A program made the position numbers and the translations under genes. From Salisaeta longa DSM 21114 (GTDB taxonomy: Bacteria > Bacteroidota > Rhodothermia > Rhodothermales > Salinibacteraceae): a stretch of 64,000 nt of DNA. The stretch is taken from contig NZ_ATTH01000001.1 in NCBI RefSeq assembly GCF_000419585.1, forward strand, positions 766,005-830,004. The letters are read 5' to 3'. The notes beneath the pieces were generated by a model that was given only the letters and a program-made list of their open reading frames with translations, did no database searches and was not told where the DNA came from. Positions 8,759-47,751 of the stretch are shown here, one piece after another. Positions within the stretch are counted from its first letter, which is position 1; every line of letters starts with the position of its first letter.

Positions 8759-8880
8759 GGGGCGGTCGGGTCAGTTGGGGCCGCGGCATGTGTAAAGAGG
8801 CCGTTGGCGCGCCGGAATGCAAGGTTATCACATTTGCGCGGGTGCACTTTCCGGTCGGTTTCGCCTATATTTCCCATCTC

Positions 8881-9774
8881 ATGCACTTACGGTTTTACGC
8901 ATCACCCATGCCCCACCGCAAAATCCGGTTTATTGACCTGCCCGACACGATCGAGCAGGTGCTTACGTTTGTCTTCTGGCTGTTTGTGGGCTCCATCGCG
9001 TTCAGCGTGATGGGCCTGCTGCTGTTGCGGCTGTTTCCAAGCGTCATGCAATTCTTTGGCCCAATGTACACGAAGCTCGTGAAGTCGCCGACGTGGACGT
9101 ACATGACGCTGCTGGCTGTGATGCCGCTGCTCATGTACGGCGCGTCGTTGGGATGGAAGCGGATGACGTTCATCGCCGCCTGGGGCTGCATCATTGGCGG
9201 GGCAAGCGAGCTGATTGGAACGACAGGGGTGTTTACGCCGGGTGGGTTTGTCTTTCCGTTTGGCGCCTACGAGTACACGCACTGGCTGGGAGCGAAAATA
9301 GCGGGCCACGTGCCCTATTTCATTCCGCCGTCGTGGTTTGCCATGTCGATTGTCTCGCTGGATTTGGCGCGGCGGGTGGCCGATACGCGCTGGGCGGCGG
9401 TGGCCTGGGGCACGCTGTTTATGGTGCTGTGGGACGTATCGCTCGATCCGGCCATGAGCCGCGCATTTCCGTTTTGGACGTACGGCGTGGACGGCTTTTA
9501 CTACGGCATGCCGCTGTCTAACTGGTTTGGATGGGCTGGCGTTACCTTTGTGATTCTTGTGGGCTACGAGTACCTGGGCGGCGGCCTCGACAAGCTCAGC
9601 CGCTGGGCGCCGGCCGTGTATGCGCTCAACTGCCTGTTTCCGCTGGCCATCTGCTTGCTGCAAGGGTTGTATGTCGCGGCCCTCGTGGGGGCGGCGGCTA
9701 CGGCACTTCCATTTGTCATAATCTGGAAGGTGCGCGGCACGCCTACGCTCTCGATGACGCCTGCACAAGCCTAG
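8881..9774 (+). CDS. cruF: CruF-like carotenoid 1',2'-hydratase
   Basis: About 297 residues from ATG 8881 (a second ATG at 8908 would give 288); the frame is open upstream to 8788 but without family features. The protein is a multi-spanning membrane protein with seven or eight hydrophobic segments. Conserved polar blocks are GGASELIGTTGVFTPGG with FPFGAYEYTHWLG, DVSLDPAM, FWTYGVDGFYYGMPLSNWFGW, all hallmarks of the CruF / bisanhydrobacterioruberin hydratase family. The enzyme adds water across the terminal psi-end double bond of gamma-carotene or lycopene-type carotenoids, creating the 1'-OH that is later glycosylated. It leads a tight cluster: crtB starts 7 bp after its stop. In Salinibacter relatives this step is part of salinixanthin synthesis. 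Confidence 0.88.
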   Translation: MHLRFYASPMPHRKIRFIDLPDTIEQVLTFVFWLFVGSIAFSVMGLLLLRLFPSVMQFFGPMYTKLVKSPTWTYMTLLAVMPLLMYGASLGWKRMTFIAAWGCIIGGASELIGTTGVFTPGGFVFPFGAYEYTHWLGAKIAGHVPYFIPPSWFAMSIVSLDLARRVADTRWAAVAWGTLFMVLWDVSLDPAMSRAFPFWTYGVDGFYYGMPLSNWFGWAGVTFVILVGYEYLGGGLDKLSRWAPAVYALNCLFPLAICLLQGLYVAALVGAAATALPFVIIWKVRGTPTLSMTPAQA

Positions 9775-9781
9775 AGATGCC

Positions 9782-10708
9782 ATGGACGTTGCTGCTTCGA
9801 CGCATTCTGAAGATGTGGAGGCCCCGGATGGCGACCCGGATGCGTACATCTGGAACGCCTTTCACCATCACTCCCGCACCTTCTCGATGGCTGCGCGGCT
9901 GCTTCCGCCGTCGCGGCAACTGCCCATCGCCACGCTCTATCTGTTCTGCCGGCGGGTGGACACGCTCGCCGATGAGCGCGTGCTCGATGTAGGGGCCGAG
10001 CAGGCGCTGCGTGAGGTGGCGGCGCTGGAAGACCGCCTCGATCGGACGCTGGCAGGCCATCCGCCGGAAGCCCTGCTGTGGCAGCGGCTCGCGGATGTGC
10101 ATGCGCGCTACGGGCTGCAGCGGGCGCCGATGGATGAGCTCATCGCCGGGGCCCGCTTCGACTTGGAGGGGCGTACGGTGGAGACGCTGGACGACCTGGT
10201 GCACTATTCGAACCTGGTGGGCGGCAGCGTGGGCGCTATGATGCTGCCGTTTCTGTGCGTTGGGCAAGACCACGAACCGCTCGATGCGCCGGCGCGCACG
10301 CTGGGCATCGCCATGCAGATCACAAACATCACCCGCGACGTGGGGGAAGACCTCCGGATGCGCGAGCGGGTGTACCTGCCGCGGGCGTGGATGGACGAAG
10401 CCGGGGTGACGGTGGACGACCTGCGCGCCGGCCGCGTGACGCCGGCCTACCGTGGCCTCATGGAGCGCGTGATGGAAGCGGCCGAGGAGCGGTACACCGA
10501 AGGGATGGCGGCTATCGATGCCCTACCGTGGAAAGTGCGCCTCGGCATTGGCAGCGCGGCGCGCATGTACCGGGAGATCATGAACGAGGTGCGCCGCAAC
10601 GGCTACGACAACCTCACGGAGCGCGCATACGTCTCGTGGCCGCGCAAGCTGGGGCGCGTGGCGGTGGATACGTACGCCCGGCGCAAGGCGGCGCTCAAAG
10701 ATGCGTAA
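9782..10708 (+). CDS. crtB: Phytoene synthase
   Basis: 308 residues, normal for squalene/phytoene synthases. The two aspartate-rich motifs that bind the Mg-diphosphates of geranylgeranyl diphosphate are visible: DTLAD at 60-64 and DVGED at 186-190 inside NITRDVGEDLRMRERVYLP. It condenses two GGPP into phytoene, the committed step of carotenoid synthesis. The adjacent cruF favours phytoene over squalene synthase. It sits 7 bp after cruF and 6 bp before the acyltransferase gene, so the three are almost certainly one operon. Desaturase (crtI), cyclase, ketolase and glycosyltransferase genes are not in the window. Confidence 0.92.
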   Translation: MDVAASTHSEDVEAPDGDPDAYIWNAFHHHSRTFSMAARLLPPSRQLPIATLYLFCRRVDTLADERVLDVGAEQALREVAALEDRLDRTLAGHPPEALLWQRLADVHARYGLQRAPMDELIAGARFDLEGRTVETLDDLVHYSNLVGGSVGAMMLPFLCVGQDHEPLDAPARTLGIAMQITNITRDVGEDLRMRERVYLPRAWMDEAGVTVDDLRAGRVTPAYRGLMERVMEAAEERYTEGMAAIDALPWKVRLGIGSAARMYREIMNEVRRNGYDNLTERAYVSWPRKLGRVAVDTYARRKAALKDA

Positions 10709-10714
10709 TCGCCT

Positions 10715-11392
10715 ATGATGCCGTTCCTCATTCGCACGCTCATTCGGTACGAGCTGTGGCAGGCGTTCCGTTGGATCGACTATGCGGCGCCGCAGCTTCC
10801 TGCGCTGCCCGAGGGGCCGGTCATCTGCTACGCGAACCACCACCATGTGTACGACGCGCACCTCCTGTGGTACCTCGTCTCGCACACGATGGGCCGCCCC
10901 AGCACGGTGTGGATGGAGGAATGGGACCGGTATCCGCTGTTTGCGCCGGTCGGTGCGCAGCCGTTTCCGGCGTCCGACCCCGCCCGGCGCGCAGCAACGG
11001 TGCGCCGTACGGCGCGCCGGTTTCGGTCGGCGCCCCGCACGGTGCTCGTCTATTTCCCGGAGGGCGAGCTGCACGCGCCCGAGGAGGGCCTCCGGCCGTT
11101 TCCTTCGGGAGCCGTCGAGCGCCTGGCGCGGCTTTACCCCAACGCCCACTGGTGGCCGGTGGGGCTGCATGTGACGTGGCGGGGCCATCAGCGGCCGGTG
11201 GCGCTGCTCAGGGGCGGCACGGTGCAGCCGGAGCCGCCTCGTACGCCGCGGGCGACGCTGCAGGCGGTGTGGCGCCCCCTGCGCGATGCGGTGCCCGGCA
11301 CAACGGTGCGCCTCATGCGCGGGCCGCGGGCGCGGGCCGAGCGGTGGAGCCTGCGGTGGACCCGCGGCTTCTTTGCGCGCTACTTGCGCTGA
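10715..11392 (+). CDS. PlsC-type acyltransferase, CruD-like candidate
   Basis: 225 residues with the HX4D catalytic motif of glycerolipid acyltransferases (NHHHVYD, His42 and Asp47) and the FPEG motif (114-117). The family moves acyl chains from acyl-ACP/CoA to a hydroxyl at the membrane face. It directly follows crtB (6 bp) in the carotenoid operon. In green sulfur bacteria the CruD enzyme that acylates carotenoid glucosides belongs to this same superfamily, and salinixanthin of Salinibacter is an acylated carotenoid glucoside, so a CruD role is the best contextual guess. Ordinary lysophospholipid acylation remains possible. Two adjacent ATGs (10715, 10718) leave the exact start open. Confidence 0.8.
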   Translation: MMPFLIRTLIRYELWQAFRWIDYAAPQLPALPEGPVICYANHHHVYDAHLLWYLVSHTMGRPSTVWMEEWDRYPLFAPVGAQPFPASDPARRAATVRRTARRFRSAPRTVLVYFPEGELHAPEEGLRPFPSGAVERLARLYPNAHWWPVGLHVTWRGHQRPVALLRGGTVQPEPPRTPRATLQAVWRPLRDAVPGTTVRLMRGPRARAERWSLRWTRGFFARYLR

Positions 11393-42198: not shown

Positions 42199-43446
42199 AT
42201 GCCGAGTGCTCCATCCGTTCGCGTTCCGTCCGTGGCCCGCCTGCTGCCCGATGCGGTGCAGCAAAGTCCAACCGTTTCGCGTCGCGGACTGCTGGAACGC
42301 CTTTTCACCACGTGGTTCGATGGCTGGGTCTACAACCAGATCTGGGAAGATCCGCGCGTGGATGCCCGGGCGCTGCAGCTGGATGGCAACAGCCGCGTGC
42401 TCACCATCGCCTCGGGCGGATGCAACGTCCTCAACTACCTCGGGCACGGCCCCGAACGCATCACCGCGCTCGACCTGAATCCGGCCCACCTGGCCTTGAC
42501 CCGATTGAAGCTGACGGCGCTTCGCCGCGTGCCCTCGCACGATGCCTTCTACGACCTGTTTGGGCACGGCGATCGTTCCTCCAACGTCTCAATCTACACG
42601 AGGCACCTCCAACCACACCTCGACGACGACACGCGCGCCTTCTGGACGGCGCGTCGCGGGTTGCGTCGCCAACGGCGCTATCATGTGCTCGCCAGCGGGT
42701 TGTACGACCGCAGCCGCATGGGGCTTTTCCTGCGGTTTGTACACGGGGTGGCACGGCAGATGGGGCTGCAGCCCGAGCGCTTGCTGCAGGCGCAGACGCT
42801 CGCCGGGCAGCGGGCGTTCTATCAGCGCGTGGTCGCGCCGTTTTTTGAGCGCCGGTGGGTCGCCTGGCTCACCCAACAACCGGCTACGGTGTTCAGCCTG
42901 GGCATTCCGCCGCAGCAGCACCGGTTCATGGCGGAAGAGTCGAGGGGCGGTGTGCTGGGGCTCTTTCGGCAGCGGCTTCGCACCATGGTCTGCGAGTTTC
43001 CGATTCAGGACAACTACTTCGCGTGGCAGGTCTTTGGCCGCCGCTACGATCATACGCACCGCCGGGCCATTCCGCCGTACCTGCGCGCCGAGGCTTTTCC
43101 TGCGCTCCGAGAGCGCGCGGGCCGCGTGGATACGCACGTGGCCTCGTATGCCGACTATCTCGCAGCGCAGCCGACGGGCGCGTACAACGCGTTTGTGCTG
43201 CTCGATGCCCAGGATTGGATGACGCCCTCGGCCATTGCACGGCTTTGGCGCGAGATTGCACGGGTTGGCGGCGCCGGGGCGCGCGTTATCTTCCGCACGG
43301 CGGGCACGCGCTCGCCGGTCGAGGCGGCCCTGCCGACGGCGCTCCGCTCGCGCTTCACCTACCACCGGATGGCCTCTGAGCGCCTGCACGCCCACGACCG
43401 CTCGGCCATCTACGGCATGTTTCATCTCTACGAGTGCACAGCATGA
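42199..43446 (+). CDS. btaA: BtaA-like: SAM:diacylglycerol 3-amino-3-carboxypropyltransferase
   Basis: 415 residues, DUF3419 family. N-terminal WFDGWVYNQIWEDPRVDARA is the BtaA signature; the methyltransferase-like fold follows with LTIASGGCNVLNYLGHGPER, ITALDLNPAHLALTRLKL. The C-terminal half retains SIYTRHLQPHL, FRTAGTRSPVEAAL and SAIYGMFHLYECTA. BtaA transfers the 3-amino-3-carboxypropyl group from SAM to diacylglycerol, forming diacylglycerylhomoserine. Its TGA overlaps the ATG of the BtaB gene (ATGA), a strong sign of a functional pair. In known bacteria the pathway is induced by phosphate limitation to replace phospholipids; no Pho box could be recognised here. Confidence 0.88.
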   Translation: MPSAPSVRVPSVARLLPDAVQQSPTVSRRGLLERLFTTWFDGWVYNQIWEDPRVDARALQLDGNSRVLTIASGGCNVLNYLGHGPERITALDLNPAHLALTRLKLTALRRVPSHDAFYDLFGHGDRSSNVSIYTRHLQPHLDDDTRAFWTARRGLRRQRRYHVLASGLYDRSRMGLFLRFVHGVARQMGLQPERLLQAQTLAGQRAFYQRVVAPFFERRWVAWLTQQPATVFSLGIPPQQHRFMAEESRGGVLGLFRQRLRTMVCEFPIQDNYFAWQVFGRRYDHTHRRAIPPYLRAEAFPALRERAGRVDTHVASYADYLAAQPTGAYNAFVLLDAQDWMTPSAIARLWREIARVGGAGARVIFRTAGTRSPVEAALPTALRSRFTYHRMASERLHAHDRSAIYGMFHLYECTA

Positions 43447-44147
43447 GCACCGCGCAACGCATGAACCGGATGTATCGCTACACGCGCCACGTGTACGACC
43501 TCAGCCGGCGTTACTACCTGCTGGGCCGCGATGATACGCTGGCGGCGCTGGCGGCCGATGCCCCCGCAACGGTGCTGGAGATAGGGTGTGGCACGGGCCG
43601 CAACCTGCTAGAGCTCCACGAGCTCCTGCCAACGGCGACGCTGTACGGCCTCGATGCGGCGACCGTGATGCTCGACACGGCGCGCCGGTCGATAGACCGG
43701 CATGCGCCCGATGCGTCGGTGCGGCTGGCGCAGGGCCTGGCCGAATCGTTCACCATGGACGTGGCCTTCGGACGTCCGGGGCCGGTTGATGCCATCGTCT
43801 GTTCGTACGTCTTGTCGATGCTGGACGACCCGCGGCCCGCGATTGACCGGGCGCTTGCGCAGCTGCGCCCCGGCGGCGCGCTCTACATCGTCGACTTCTG
43901 GGACATTGCCGACTGGCCGGCGCCGGCGGCAGCCCTCCTGCGCCAGTGGCTTGGGCTCTTTGGCGTGCGGCATCGCCCGGCGCTCCACATGCACCTGCAT
44001 GCCCTCAGCCAGCGCGGGCGCGTCGACGACCTCGTCATTACGCCCATTGCCGGCCGGTACGCGTACCGCGCGGTGCTCCGTTGCCCCCCAACAGAACGCG
44101 GGCGACCGCCGAAGCCGTCGCCCGCGCACCAACCGTCCATCGTGTAG
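43443..44147 (+). CDS. btaB: BtaB-like: diacylglycerylhomoserine N-methyltransferase
   Basis: 234 residues from ATG 43443, overlapping the btaA stop. A class I SAM-methyltransferase: motif I VLEIGCGTGRNLLELHELLP, motif II DAIVCSYVLSMLDDP, then ALYIVDFWDIADWPAP. The N-terminal MNRMYRYTRHVYDLSRRYYL is typical for BtaB. It adds three methyl groups to the homoserine amine to give the betaine lipid DGTS. The C-terminus contains an inverted repeat (GCGGGCGAC/GTCGCCCGC, 44098-44125) that might weakly terminate transcription but lacks a T run. A MITE lies 35 bp downstream. Confidence 0.87.
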   Translation: MSTAQRMNRMYRYTRHVYDLSRRYYLLGRDDTLAALAADAPATVLEIGCGTGRNLLELHELLPTATLYGLDAATVMLDTARRSIDRHAPDASVRLAQGLAESFTMDVAFGRPGPVDAIVCSYVLSMLDDPRPAIDRALAQLRPGGALYIVDFWDIADWPAPAAALLRQWLGLFGVRHRPALHMHLHALSQRGRVDDLVITPIAGRYAYRAVLRCPPTERGRPPKPSPAHQPSIV

Positions 44148-44182
44148 CACGCGTTCGCGCGCGACACGCTGCACAGGGTTTA

Positions 44183-44341
44183 GGCTGTGTTTAAAACACC
44201 TCGCGGACTGCGCCCGGTTGGAGAGCCGCTGCTGCTGCGTTGTTCTGCATCGCGGTAGGCCCGCTACCGCTGCTTCGAACGCCTTGCAGCTCCGGCTTCC
44301 CCCTCGGGCTCGCGCTCACGTTGACTTTTTAAAACACAGCC
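44183..44341 (+). mobile_element. MITE-like element, copy A
   Basis: 159 bp bounded by GGCTGTGTTTAAAA at the left and TTTTTAAAACACAGCC at the right, near-perfect terminal inverted repeats, and flanked by TA on both sides (44181-44182 and 44342-44343). No transposase is encoded. The right TA is part of the stop codon of the Oar-like receptor gene on the minus strand, and the first element base supplies its G. About 130 bp of the interior matches copy B at 57775-57908 in the same orientation. Confidence 0.85.
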
Positions 44342-47300
44342 TAGTTAAAGATGTAGCGGATGCCCAATTGCGCCCGCCAGCGTGACACGATGGCCACGTT
44401 GTCCTGGAACGTCCGCTGCGGGCCAATCCATTCAAAGACGGGCTCGCCGGCCGCGTTGTAGCGCTCAAACCGCAACACCTGCGTGCTGATGGGCACCTCT
44501 CGCACGCCCCAGGCGCTGTTGAGCAGGTTGGGCACGTTGAAGATGTTCAGCGACACGCGCAGCGTATTCGCCGTCGAGCCAACATCCAGGGTGAAGTCCT
44601 GCGCCACCTGCAGGTCGAGCGTCGCAAACCACGGACTTAGGGCGCCGTTGCGTTCTGCAATTGCGCCGCGCACGCTGCTCAGGTACTCGTCCTGGGTGAT
44701 GTAGCGGTTGAGTGCCGACCAGTTGCTGGGGTTCACGAGGTTGATGTCGCCCGGTCCGGTGGGCACGTACATCAGATCGTTGTTGATGACGCCGTCGCCG
44801 TTCATGTCGCCGGCGTAGGTGTACGAGAACCGATCGCCGCGTCCTACCTCAAAGAACATCCCGACGGTCGTCTTGTAGCGCTCGGCATACGCCACGCGGT
44901 AGCTCGCAGCGCCGATGATGCGGTGCTTCAGGCCAAACTCCGAGAAGCTCAGCTCCGGGTTGTTCGGATCGACCGACACCGGGTTGCCCTCGAACAGCAC
45001 CTGCGCAATCTCGGTGGAGGTCAGCTTGTTGCGGGCCTGACTGTACGTGTAGGCCAGGCGCGCATTTACACCCAAATCAAACTGCTTCTTCAGCTCGCCG
45101 GTGACGCTCCACTGGTAGCCTTCGTTGGTGTTATCCATCACGTAGGCGCCCGCTACCTCGTCGTTGATGCGGGTGGACGTCTCGTTGCCGGGATTGGTCA
45201 CGTTGCCAAACGTGGGGCGGCCGTCGGGCGCAGTGCCGGTAGGCCGGGCCAGGTTGGCGTTGCGCACCACAATGGCGTTCAGGTCATTGCCGTACAGCGC
45301 GTTCACCGTGGCAATGACGTTGCCCGGCAGTCGTTGGTCAATAGCCAGGCTCGACTTCCAGACCTGCGGCCAGCGGAAGTCGTCCGACAGCGCGTTCACG
45401 ATGCCCAGGCAGCCGTCGTTATTAGGCGTGTTGATGCAGCTCGGGTTGTCGGTGCCCTGGTTCGTCACCTGGTTGCCAATCCATACAAACGGCAGCCGTC
45501 CGGTGAAGATGCCCGAACCGCCGCGGATCTGCGTGGTGCGGTCGCCCAATACGTCCCAGTTGAAGCCCACGCGCGGCGACCACAGCGGGCGCACCTCGGG
45601 CAGTTCGCTGGTGTCAATCCGCTCGTTGTTCCGGAAGCGCAGCGAGGCGATGGCTTCGTTGCGCGGAATATCCATGTAGTACACCGGCATATCCACGCGC
45701 AGCCCGGCTGTAACCTCCAGGCGATCGCTCACCGTGTACTCGTCCTGCACGTACAGCGCGCCTTGCCCCACGTTTGTCTCATCAAAAGCAAACGTCGGGT
45801 TGTCCGGGACAAACTCGTTCAGCTCCAGGAAGCAAGGCCCATCGGCCGGATCAACGCCGGGCGCGCTACACGACGGATTGCTGGGATCTGTGTACGCAAA
45901 GAAGTCGTCGAGCGATTGAAACCGCGTGCCCCCGAACTGCACAGGCGCGACGAAGAGCCCGTACTTAAACAGGTTAAACGAGTTGTTGAACCAGAATTGC
46001 TCGTAGTTCACGCCCAGTGTGATGGTGTGCCTTCCGGCAAAGATGCTGAAGTTATTCGTGAACTGAAAGACGTCCTGGTCCAGCAGGTTATTGATGGAGA
46101 ACGGCTCATGCCCGGCCGTGGTGTAGAGCAGCCCGTTCTCAAAGATCTCCAGCGTGGGAAACGGGGTGCTGAACGGCTCCCGGTTATCGCGGAAGGCCGT
46201 GTAGCCGATGATCGTCTTGTTGGTGTAGCGGGTGCCAAACGAGCCGTTGTACTCGCCCACGATCGAGTAGATGTCGTTGTTGATCGTGTAGCCTGCGTTC
46301 TCGAAGGGCAGGGTGTTCTGATTGGGCCCGCGGCGGAAAATGGCCACCGGGTTGGCGTTTAGGTCTTTGGCGGCGTTCAGGTAATTGAAGCGCAGCGTGG
46401 CCGTCTGGCCGGTCGCGATATTCCAGTCCAGCTTGGCCAGCAGCTTGTCGTTGGTGGTATCCAGCAGGTAGCCGCGGCCAAAACCGCCCGTGTCGTAGTT
46501 GTACTCCTCTTGCAGCCGCTGGCTAATCCGTTCCATGACGTCGGCCTGCACGCGCGATACGTTTGGCCCATTGTTGTTGGGGTTGCCATCGGTGTCCGCG
46601 CTGAAGACGGAGCCGGGATCGTCGCGACGCACAATCTCGCCGTTGACGAAGAAAAACAGCTTGTCTTCAATGATTGGCCCGCCCACGCTGATGCCGGCCT
46701 GGTTGAAGGTGAGGTCGGGCTCAAAGAGCGTCGCGCTGCCCACCTGATCGCCAATTAGGTTTTCGTTGCGCGTGAAGTAGTAGGCCGTAGCGGTCAAGTC
46801 GTTCGTGCCGCTCTTGGTGACGGTGTTTACGCCGGCGCCGGTAAAGCCGCCCTGGCGCACGTCGAAGGGGGCGATGGAGACCTGCACCTGCTCCACCGCA
46901 TCCAAGCTGATGGGCTGCGCGCTGGTTTGGCCGCCGGGCACGGGCGAGTCGAGGCCGTACGGGTTGTTGAAGATTGAGCCGTCGACGGAAAAGTTGTTGT
47001 ACTGCGTGTTGCGTCCGCCAAAGCTCAGGCCGCTGGCCTGCGGCGTCAGCCGTGTGAAGTCTTGCGTGCTGCGGCTGATGGTTGGCAGGGCCTCGATGGC
47101 GTCCTCCTGCACAAAGGTGGAAATCCCGCTGCGGTCGCTGTTGAGGTCTGACTCTTCGCCTACCACAACGACTTGATCGAGGGCGCGGGCTTCTTCCTCA
47201 AGCACCACGTTCAGCTCGCGGTCTTCGCCCAGCTGCAGCCGGATGCCGGTTTGCTCGGCCGGCTTGTAGCCAATGAAGGTGACGCGGACGGTGTAGGGGC

Positions 47301-47538
47301 CGCCGATGCGCATGGCGCGAAAGAGAAACCGGCCCTGCGCGTTGGTTGCTGTGCCGTAGCGCGTGCCGGTGGGGGTATGAATGGCAAGGACGTTGGCGCC
47401 GGGCAGCGGCTCGCCCTGCGTGTCGACGACGGTGCCGTGCATGGCAGCACGCGTGACGCCCTGGGCGGCGGCTTCGGGAATGGTCCATGTGAATCCTGCC
47501 AAGAGCAGGAGGATGACGGTACGGTAGGTGTAAGTCAT
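44341..47538 (-). CDS. Oar-like TonB-dependent receptor with CarboxypepD-regulatory domain
   Basis: 1065 residues from ATG 47538. Signal peptide MTYTYRTVILLLLAGFTWTI...AAAQ, then a carboxypeptidase-regulatory-like domain (GTVVDTQGEPLPGANVLAIH, FIGYKPAEQTGIRL), then the plug (ALPTISRSTQDFTRLTPQAS, GFTGAGVNTVTKSGTN) and a beta-barrel of about 750 residues ending in phenylalanine-terminated GIRYIFN. It lacks an obvious SusD partner, so it fits the Oar family rather than a SusC system. Such receptors import or export large substrates or are adhesion-like outer membrane proteins. The stop codon is TAG made with the end of MITE copy A. Upstream 213 bp hold its promoter and end at the photolyase gene. 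Confidence 0.92.
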   Translation of the reverse strand: MTYTYRTVILLLLAGFTWTIPEAAAQGVTRAAMHGTVVDTQGEPLPGANVLAIHTPTGTRYGTATNAQGRFLFRAMRIGGPYTVRVTFIGYKPAEQTGIRLQLGEDRELNVVLEEEARALDQVVVVGEESDLNSDRSGISTFVQEDAIEALPTISRSTQDFTRLTPQASGLSFGGRNTQYNNFSVDGSIFNNPYGLDSPVPGGQTSAQPISLDAVEQVQVSIAPFDVRQGGFTGAGVNTVTKSGTNDLTATAYYFTRNENLIGDQVGSATLFEPDLTFNQAGISVGGPIIEDKLFFFVNGEIVRRDDPGSVFSADTDGNPNNNGPNVSRVQADVMERISQRLQEEYNYDTGGFGRGYLLDTTNDKLLAKLDWNIATGQTATLRFNYLNAAKDLNANPVAIFRRGPNQNTLPFENAGYTINNDIYSIVGEYNGSFGTRYTNKTIIGYTAFRDNREPFSTPFPTLEIFENGLLYTTAGHEPFSINNLLDQDVFQFTNNFSIFAGRHTITLGVNYEQFWFNNSFNLFKYGLFVAPVQFGGTRFQSLDDFFAYTDPSNPSCSAPGVDPADGPCFLELNEFVPDNPTFAFDETNVGQGALYVQDEYTVSDRLEVTAGLRVDMPVYYMDIPRNEAIASLRFRNNERIDTSELPEVRPLWSPRVGFNWDVLGDRTTQIRGGSGIFTGRLPFVWIGNQVTNQGTDNPSCINTPNNDGCLGIVNALSDDFRWPQVWKSSLAIDQRLPGNVIATVNALYGNDLNAIVVRNANLARPTGTAPDGRPTFGNVTNPGNETSTRINDEVAGAYVMDNTNEGYQWSVTGELKKQFDLGVNARLAYTYSQARNKLTSTEIAQVLFEGNPVSVDPNNPELSFSEFGLKHRIIGAASYRVAYAERYKTTVGMFFEVGRGDRFSYTYAGDMNGDGVINNDLMYVPTGPGDINLVNPSNWSALNRYITQDEYLSSVRGAIAERNGALSPWFATLDLQVAQDFTLDVGSTANTLRVSLNIFNVPNLLNSAWGVREVPISTQVLRFERYNAAGEPVFEWIGPQRTFQDNVAIVSRWRAQLGIRYIFN

Positions 47539-47751
47539 GAGTGTGGTGTTTGAAGATAATAGTTTGAACACATACTACCATACGATGGCTATGTAACGAA
47601 TTGAAACCAGTTACACAAGACTTAGCCGTAACGTTGAAGTGTATTCACGTTCGGGCGCTCTTTCAGGTAAGGGCCAGCGCCGCTACGGGTCGGTCAGTTT
47701 GTGGTCCCATGCGCTTCAACGCTGCGCTGGGTAACGGCTCAAGATTGGTCC

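Follow-up and report, generated by a model that had tools for sequence, protein, structure and literature searches.

Putative phosphate-controlled DGTS synthesis by a btaA-btaB bicistron of Salisaeta longa

Salisaeta longa DSM 21114 (Salinibacteraceae) carries a btaA-btaB bicistron, whose product we propose to be the phosphorus-free betaine lipid DGTS. The bicistron would work together with an unlinked plcP gene, and the promoters of both share a box of 11-bp repeats. As this common box is most likely bound by a PhoB-like regulator, DGTS would take the place of some of the phospholipid when phosphate is limiting, a scheme that we hold with considerable confidence. We infer that, in S. longa, BtaA would transfer the 3-amino-3-carboxypropyl group of S-adenosylmethionine to diacylglycerol, generating diacylglycerylhomoserine, and that BtaB would add three methyl groups to the nitrogen of the latter, resulting in the formation of DGTS (this reaction sequence is reviewed in PMC3972451). 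PlcP would turn phospholipids into the diacylglycerol used by BtaA, and a PhoB-like response regulator, encoded beside pstB and phoU, would most likely bind the box at btaA and plcP. The enzymes are already known; what is new is the lineage and the apparent Pho-type box. No report of betaine lipids in the halophilic branch of the Rhodothermota was found in the literature, and the present data place a complete DGTS pathway there, together with a defined cis-element through which control by phosphate can be put to the test.

The btaA-btaB gene pair

The window, the whole stretch of DNA analysed here, comprises 64,000 nt of contig NZ_ATTH01000001.1 (766,005-830,004, forward strand). The initial annotation had described a DUF3419 gene and a small methyltransferase gene at 42199-44147, joined by an ATGA overlap. 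Both open reading frames are found there, and the four bases are common to both (Table 1); this overlap may couple the translation of btaB to that of btaA. Homologous adjacent btaA/btaB pairs occur in about 90 loci, and the overlap is exactly 4 bases in 22 of the 79 pairs measured, hence the pairing is not a matter of chance.

Table 1 Features of the btaAB and plcP loci of S. longa. Position 1 is the first letter of the 64,000-nt window; genome coordinates are given as C1:
Feature	Position	Strand	Description
PhoB-box-like element 5' of btaA	42129..42159	+	half-sites TAAT (42129) and TAAC (42140), 11 bp apart
btaA	42199..43446	+	ATG at 42199, stop ends at 43446, 415 aa; putative S-adenosylmethionine:diacylglycerol 3-amino-3-carboxypropyltransferase, DUF3419
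ATGA overlap, btaA stop/btaB start	43443..43446	+	read from the sequence
btaB	43443..44147	+	ATG at 43443, stop ends at 44147, 234 aa; putative S-adenosylmethionine:diacylglycerylhomoserine N-methyltransferase
plcP	C1:289164-289904		519 kb from btaAB; PlcP homology

The pair is a free-standing bicistron, with a divergent UPF0029-family gene on the minus strand at its 5' side and a convergent gene for an outer-membrane protein (44341-47571) at its 3' side. A generic scan for sigma-70 promoters and terminators gave nothing useful. The proposed adjacency to carotenoid acyl-glycoside genes does not hold, as the carotenoid genes (encoding a carotenoid synthesis protein, a phytoene synthase and an acyltransferase) lie at 8788-11392, 31 kb from btaAB. 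The interval from btaB to the gene for the outer-membrane protein contains a MITE-like element of about 160 bp (44181-44343) with 16-bp terminal inverted repeats (TAGGCTGTGTTTAAAA). Genome-wide this element gives 27 matches, and 12 of these are nearly full-length with ≥90% identity.

BtaA matches PF11899 (DUF3419) over residues 38-412 with 347 bits (E=1.9e-103; cut-off 28.2) and is encoded by a single gene copy in the genome. It shares 43-45% identity with the Sinorhizobium and Shinella copies and 40.9% with that of R. leguminosarum. The alignment of BtaA proteins from Rhodothermota, Planctomycetota, Thiotrichales and alphaproteobacteria has 69 invariant columns, and the S. longa protein keeps every residue that is invariant in 20 homologs (QIWEDP 47-52, S72, C75, N76, D92, D336, D339, W340, DRS 400-402 and YG 405-406 among them). 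Its AlphaFold model has a pLDDT of 91.2. A tree of DUF3419 proteins, from a set without the Rhodobacter sphaeroides BtaA, is split with a support of 100 into a long and a short subtype, the S. longa protein falling into the long one together with Rhizobium. The short subtype (about 24-31% identity to BtaA) occurs without BtaB elsewhere in the order and in other contexts; it should not be taken for BtaA and is probably a different aminocarboxypropyl transferase. Its loci in our set are L009-L015, L018 and L022, and in Roseinatronobacter sp. S2 it clusters with UbiA prenyltransferase, PEP/pyruvate-binding and AMP-binding proteins.

BtaB is a class I S-adenosylmethionine-dependent methyltransferase (PF13489, E=1.6e-15; pLDDT of the predicted structure 91.7), 40-45% identical to the methyltransferases encoded directly 3' of btaA in rhizobia, with 31 invariant columns in its alignment. 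In a survey with one genome per species, which returned 80 loci, btaB was the next gene on the same strand in every long-type btaA locus having sequence beyond btaA. Among 18 Salinibacteraceae genomes searched, BtaB was found in exactly the five that have a long BtaA, at 288 bits or more, anything else scoring at most 69 bits. Domains, rhizobial homology, linkage, tree and invariant columns thus agree with the initial identification of the genes and of the DGTS pathway; by these sequence criteria the pair is a genuine btaAB, and synthesis of DGTS by its products is very likely.

Two other products of the pair have to be considered. It is improbable that the pair generates a different amino lipid, by using an acceptor other than diacylglycerol or by stopping short in methylation (giving DGHS, a mono- or dimethyl form or a carboxypropyl-modified sulfonolipid). 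The DUF3419 family may indeed be functionally diverse, since its short subtype sits without BtaB in other contexts; moreover, no solved structure homologous to BtaA was found by sequence and the fold search returned weak class I methyltransferase similarity alone, so that neither provides a solved BtaA in which to probe the acceptor pocket. The S. longa protein, however, belongs to the rhizobial long subtype with its invariant columns and ever-adjacent BtaB, and diacylglycerol as the acceptor is in keeping with the linkage of the pair to PlcP, a source of this lipid. Harder still to credit is that BtaB would be a phosphatidylethanolamine (PE) N-methyltransferase (PmtA) making phosphatidylcholine (PC). 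The closest solved structure by sequence is a PE N-methyltransferase (8ys9, E=2.7e-7), which is also among the best fold hits, and PC is among the lipids reported for the family (PMC5167729). Against this, BtaB is always beside BtaA and missing where BtaA is missing, and a Pcs-like gene, present both in S. longa and in G007, a family genome without btaAB, explains the PC better.

PlcP and the promoter box

DGTS synthesis by btaAB, as proposed above, would draw on the diacylglycerol supplied by PlcP. Clustering of the neighbouring genes over all loci revealed that btaAB has a metallophosphoesterase gene as a neighbour in the nearest relative as well as in Thiothrix, Leucothrix and Rhodobacterales; no plcP linkage was seen by this clustering in the btaAB loci of Planctomycetota. 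Within the family plcP lies directly 3' of btaAB in five of eight loci (G001, G017, G020, G024 and G025). Three genomes of the family, all from one genus (L222, L226 and L228), have plcP doubled in tandem after btaAB. In Phaeobacter sp. MED193 plcP encodes a phospholipase C that is required for DGTS (PMC4796936). The unlinked PlcP of S. longa is 48-65% identical to all btaAB-linked copies (48-56% to the gamma- and alphaproteobacterial ones) and, over the best stretch, 71% identical to that of G001, while a second, LpxH-like homolog in S. longa scores far lower. PlcP-like genes are also extant in family relatives without btaAB, which implies that PlcP is not restricted to DGTS synthesis.

The Pho-box-like site envisaged by the initial annotation upstream of 42199 is absent in its classical form, the best match to the E. 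coli-type box having 6 mismatches and being no better than in shuffled sequence, but a lineage-specific direct-repeat box, common to btaA and plcP, is present. In the btaA promoters of the relatives, three xTAAY half-sites recur at a spacing of exactly 11 bp, and TAnnTT comes 14 nt later. A matrix was built from seven of these btaA promoters, without any plcP promoter; when left out in turn, the btaA sites of three relatives outscored all 127,902 window positions. Within the 300 bp 5' of S. longa btaA no site scores higher than the btaA box, which ranks third of the 127,902 positions, albeit it is degenerate (8.5 bits compared to 40-48 bits in the relatives), with a weak -7-like TAACCT 14 nt after the start of TAAC. 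The S. longa plcP promoter, whose box is at C1:288997-289027, is the top matrix site of its own locus (18.4 bits). Across the order, 16 of 19 PlcP loci have their top site 35-151 bp 5' of the matched plcP start; one of the 16 (L181, inside a btaAB operon) has a negative score and is thus not a site, and for operon-internal plcP copies no box is expected.

In pattern searches with two half-sites the btaA box is the sole match in the window, and the S. longa genome contains four matches (plcP, btaA, a TonB receptor and C1:590284), the reversed control giving none. The match at C1:590284, where long flanking open reading frames run on the other strand, is probably due to chance. The pattern with three half-sites has 16 hits in 20 genomes and none in the reversed control: four are at btaA, two at plcP, eight at TonB receptors, one at a PhoB-like regulator (genome G027) and one is unclear. 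The best S. longa match of the G027 regulator (52%), encoded at C1:335319-335990, adjoins pstB and phoU; none of the PhoB-like regulators reaches the strict PhoB cut-off.

PhoB sites consist of 11-base tandem repeats just before the -10 element. We infer PhoB as the binder from the resemblance of the Rhodothermales box to this build: both have 11-bp repeats in tandem, set 10 bp ahead of the -7/-10 element. The half-site is different (xTAAY instead of CTGTCAT), and PhoB is a candidate binder. Phosphate control of btaAB and plcP appears well supported by sequence comparison. We also lean, less firmly, towards a broader reading, in which the Rhodothermales would possess a Pho box variant peculiar to them (tandem xTAAY at 11 bp, 10 bp before a Bacteroidota-type TAnnTTTG). 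Throughout the order this variant would co-regulate, at low phosphate, a set consisting of plcP, btaAB and a TonB receptor, joined in one genome or more by the PhoB-like regulator itself; the salt-adapted family, which has sulfonolipids and PC, would thus switch part of its membrane to DGTS.

Alternatively, DGTS could be made at all times, or be induced by salt or some other stress, the box being bound by a different member of the OmpR family, a reading that we consider rather unlikely. OmpR-family regulators generally bind direct repeats of about 11 bp, and the S. longa genome encodes eight full-length PhoB/OmpR-like regulators. The box was not found at the S. longa pstS, alkaline phosphatase and phoB-pstB-phoU promoters, and the btaA site itself is weak. 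What speaks for PhoB is that the box precedes plcP across the order as well as the regulator of G027, whose S. longa ortholog has pstB and phoU as neighbours, and that the btaAB genes of sinorhizobia, the alphaproteobacterial counterparts, are PhoB-regulated (PMC3972451).

The strongest copy of the box in S. longa (L237:6938-6990, G000:C1:3102937-3102990), with four perfect TAAY at 11-bp spacing and a perfect TACCTTTG, is located upstream of genes for a PKD-domain lipoprotein and a TonB receptor; the TonB receptor box is at C1:3102948-3102985. This locus also encodes two divergent proteins of 510-526 aa that have no Pfam or NCBIfam match. We regard it as a candidate outer-membrane locus for phosphorus uptake.

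Phospholipids of the envelope

The initial annotation had hinted at a non-phospholipid envelope, which is at odds with the gene content of S. longa. Genes for Psd and PssA are adjacent to each other in the genome, which also has genes for PgsA and for proteins resembling cardiolipin synthase and Pcs; from these S. longa is predicted to make phosphatidylserine, PE and PG, and probably cardiolipin and PC. Members of the family are reported to contain DPG, PC, PE, a glycolipid and a halocapnine sulfonolipid, DGTS not being among them (PMC5167729); these lipid lists probably come from phosphate-replete cultures. DGTS would accordingly supplement the phospholipids or replace them under certain conditions, and is not the sign of a phospholipid-free envelope. 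The divergent Pcs-like proteins L178 and L180 match phosphatidylcholine synthase models only, well below the cut-offs, and are a likely source of PC in the family. Since DGTS and PC are both zwitterionic and have a quaternary amine, TLC-based assignments of "PC" in btaAB strains merit a check.

Origin of btaAB and comparison with known systems

The S. longa BtaA forms one clade (SH-aLRT 96) with L024, a protein of a Great Salt Lake MAG that is 62% identical to it, and with six other family members. This clade is near those of Planctomycetota and Thiotrichales and away from the alphaproteobacterial one, a position that rules out a recent import of btaAB from alphaproteobacteria. The range given in the initial annotation (alphaproteobacteria and some eukaryotes) is too narrow: outside the family, it is Planctomycetota and Thiotrichales that have the closest relatives. 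In the family btaAB is present in 8 of 27 genomes, and loss or within-family transfer would be the simplest account of this patchiness. Betaine lipids of hypersaline and environmental samples, often credited to algae or alphaproteobacteria, could also stem from this halophilic branch of the Rhodothermota.

Among named records, the rhizobial pairs are the nearest systems to have been described. The btaA-btaB genes of Sinorhizobium and Rhizobium encode the same two enzymes in the same order and on the same strand (41-45% identity for most copies), with the 4-base overlap in R. leguminosarum as in the window. The annotation of the Sinorhizobium btaA, SMc01848, states that DGTS synthesis requires it (PMC12542648). 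Unlike these, the S. longa pair is found in a different phylum, among different neighbours and behind a control box of TAAY repeats rather than an E. coli-type CTGTCAT box. The plcP-btaA-btaB cluster of Phaeobacter sp. MED193 (PMC4796936) resembles the loci of the Salinibacteraceae relatives in linking the PlcP phospholipase C to btaAB, whereas in these relatives plcP is downstream of btaB, often doubled, and in S. longa it is far from the pair. The Planctomycetota and Thiotrichales pairs have the same gene order and about 49-55% identity, but form clades separate from the family, and the linkage to plcP is found in Thiotrichales. The eukaryotic BTA1, in which BtaA and BtaB domains are fused, carries out the same two reactions (PMC10685587), a likeness drawn from its described function.
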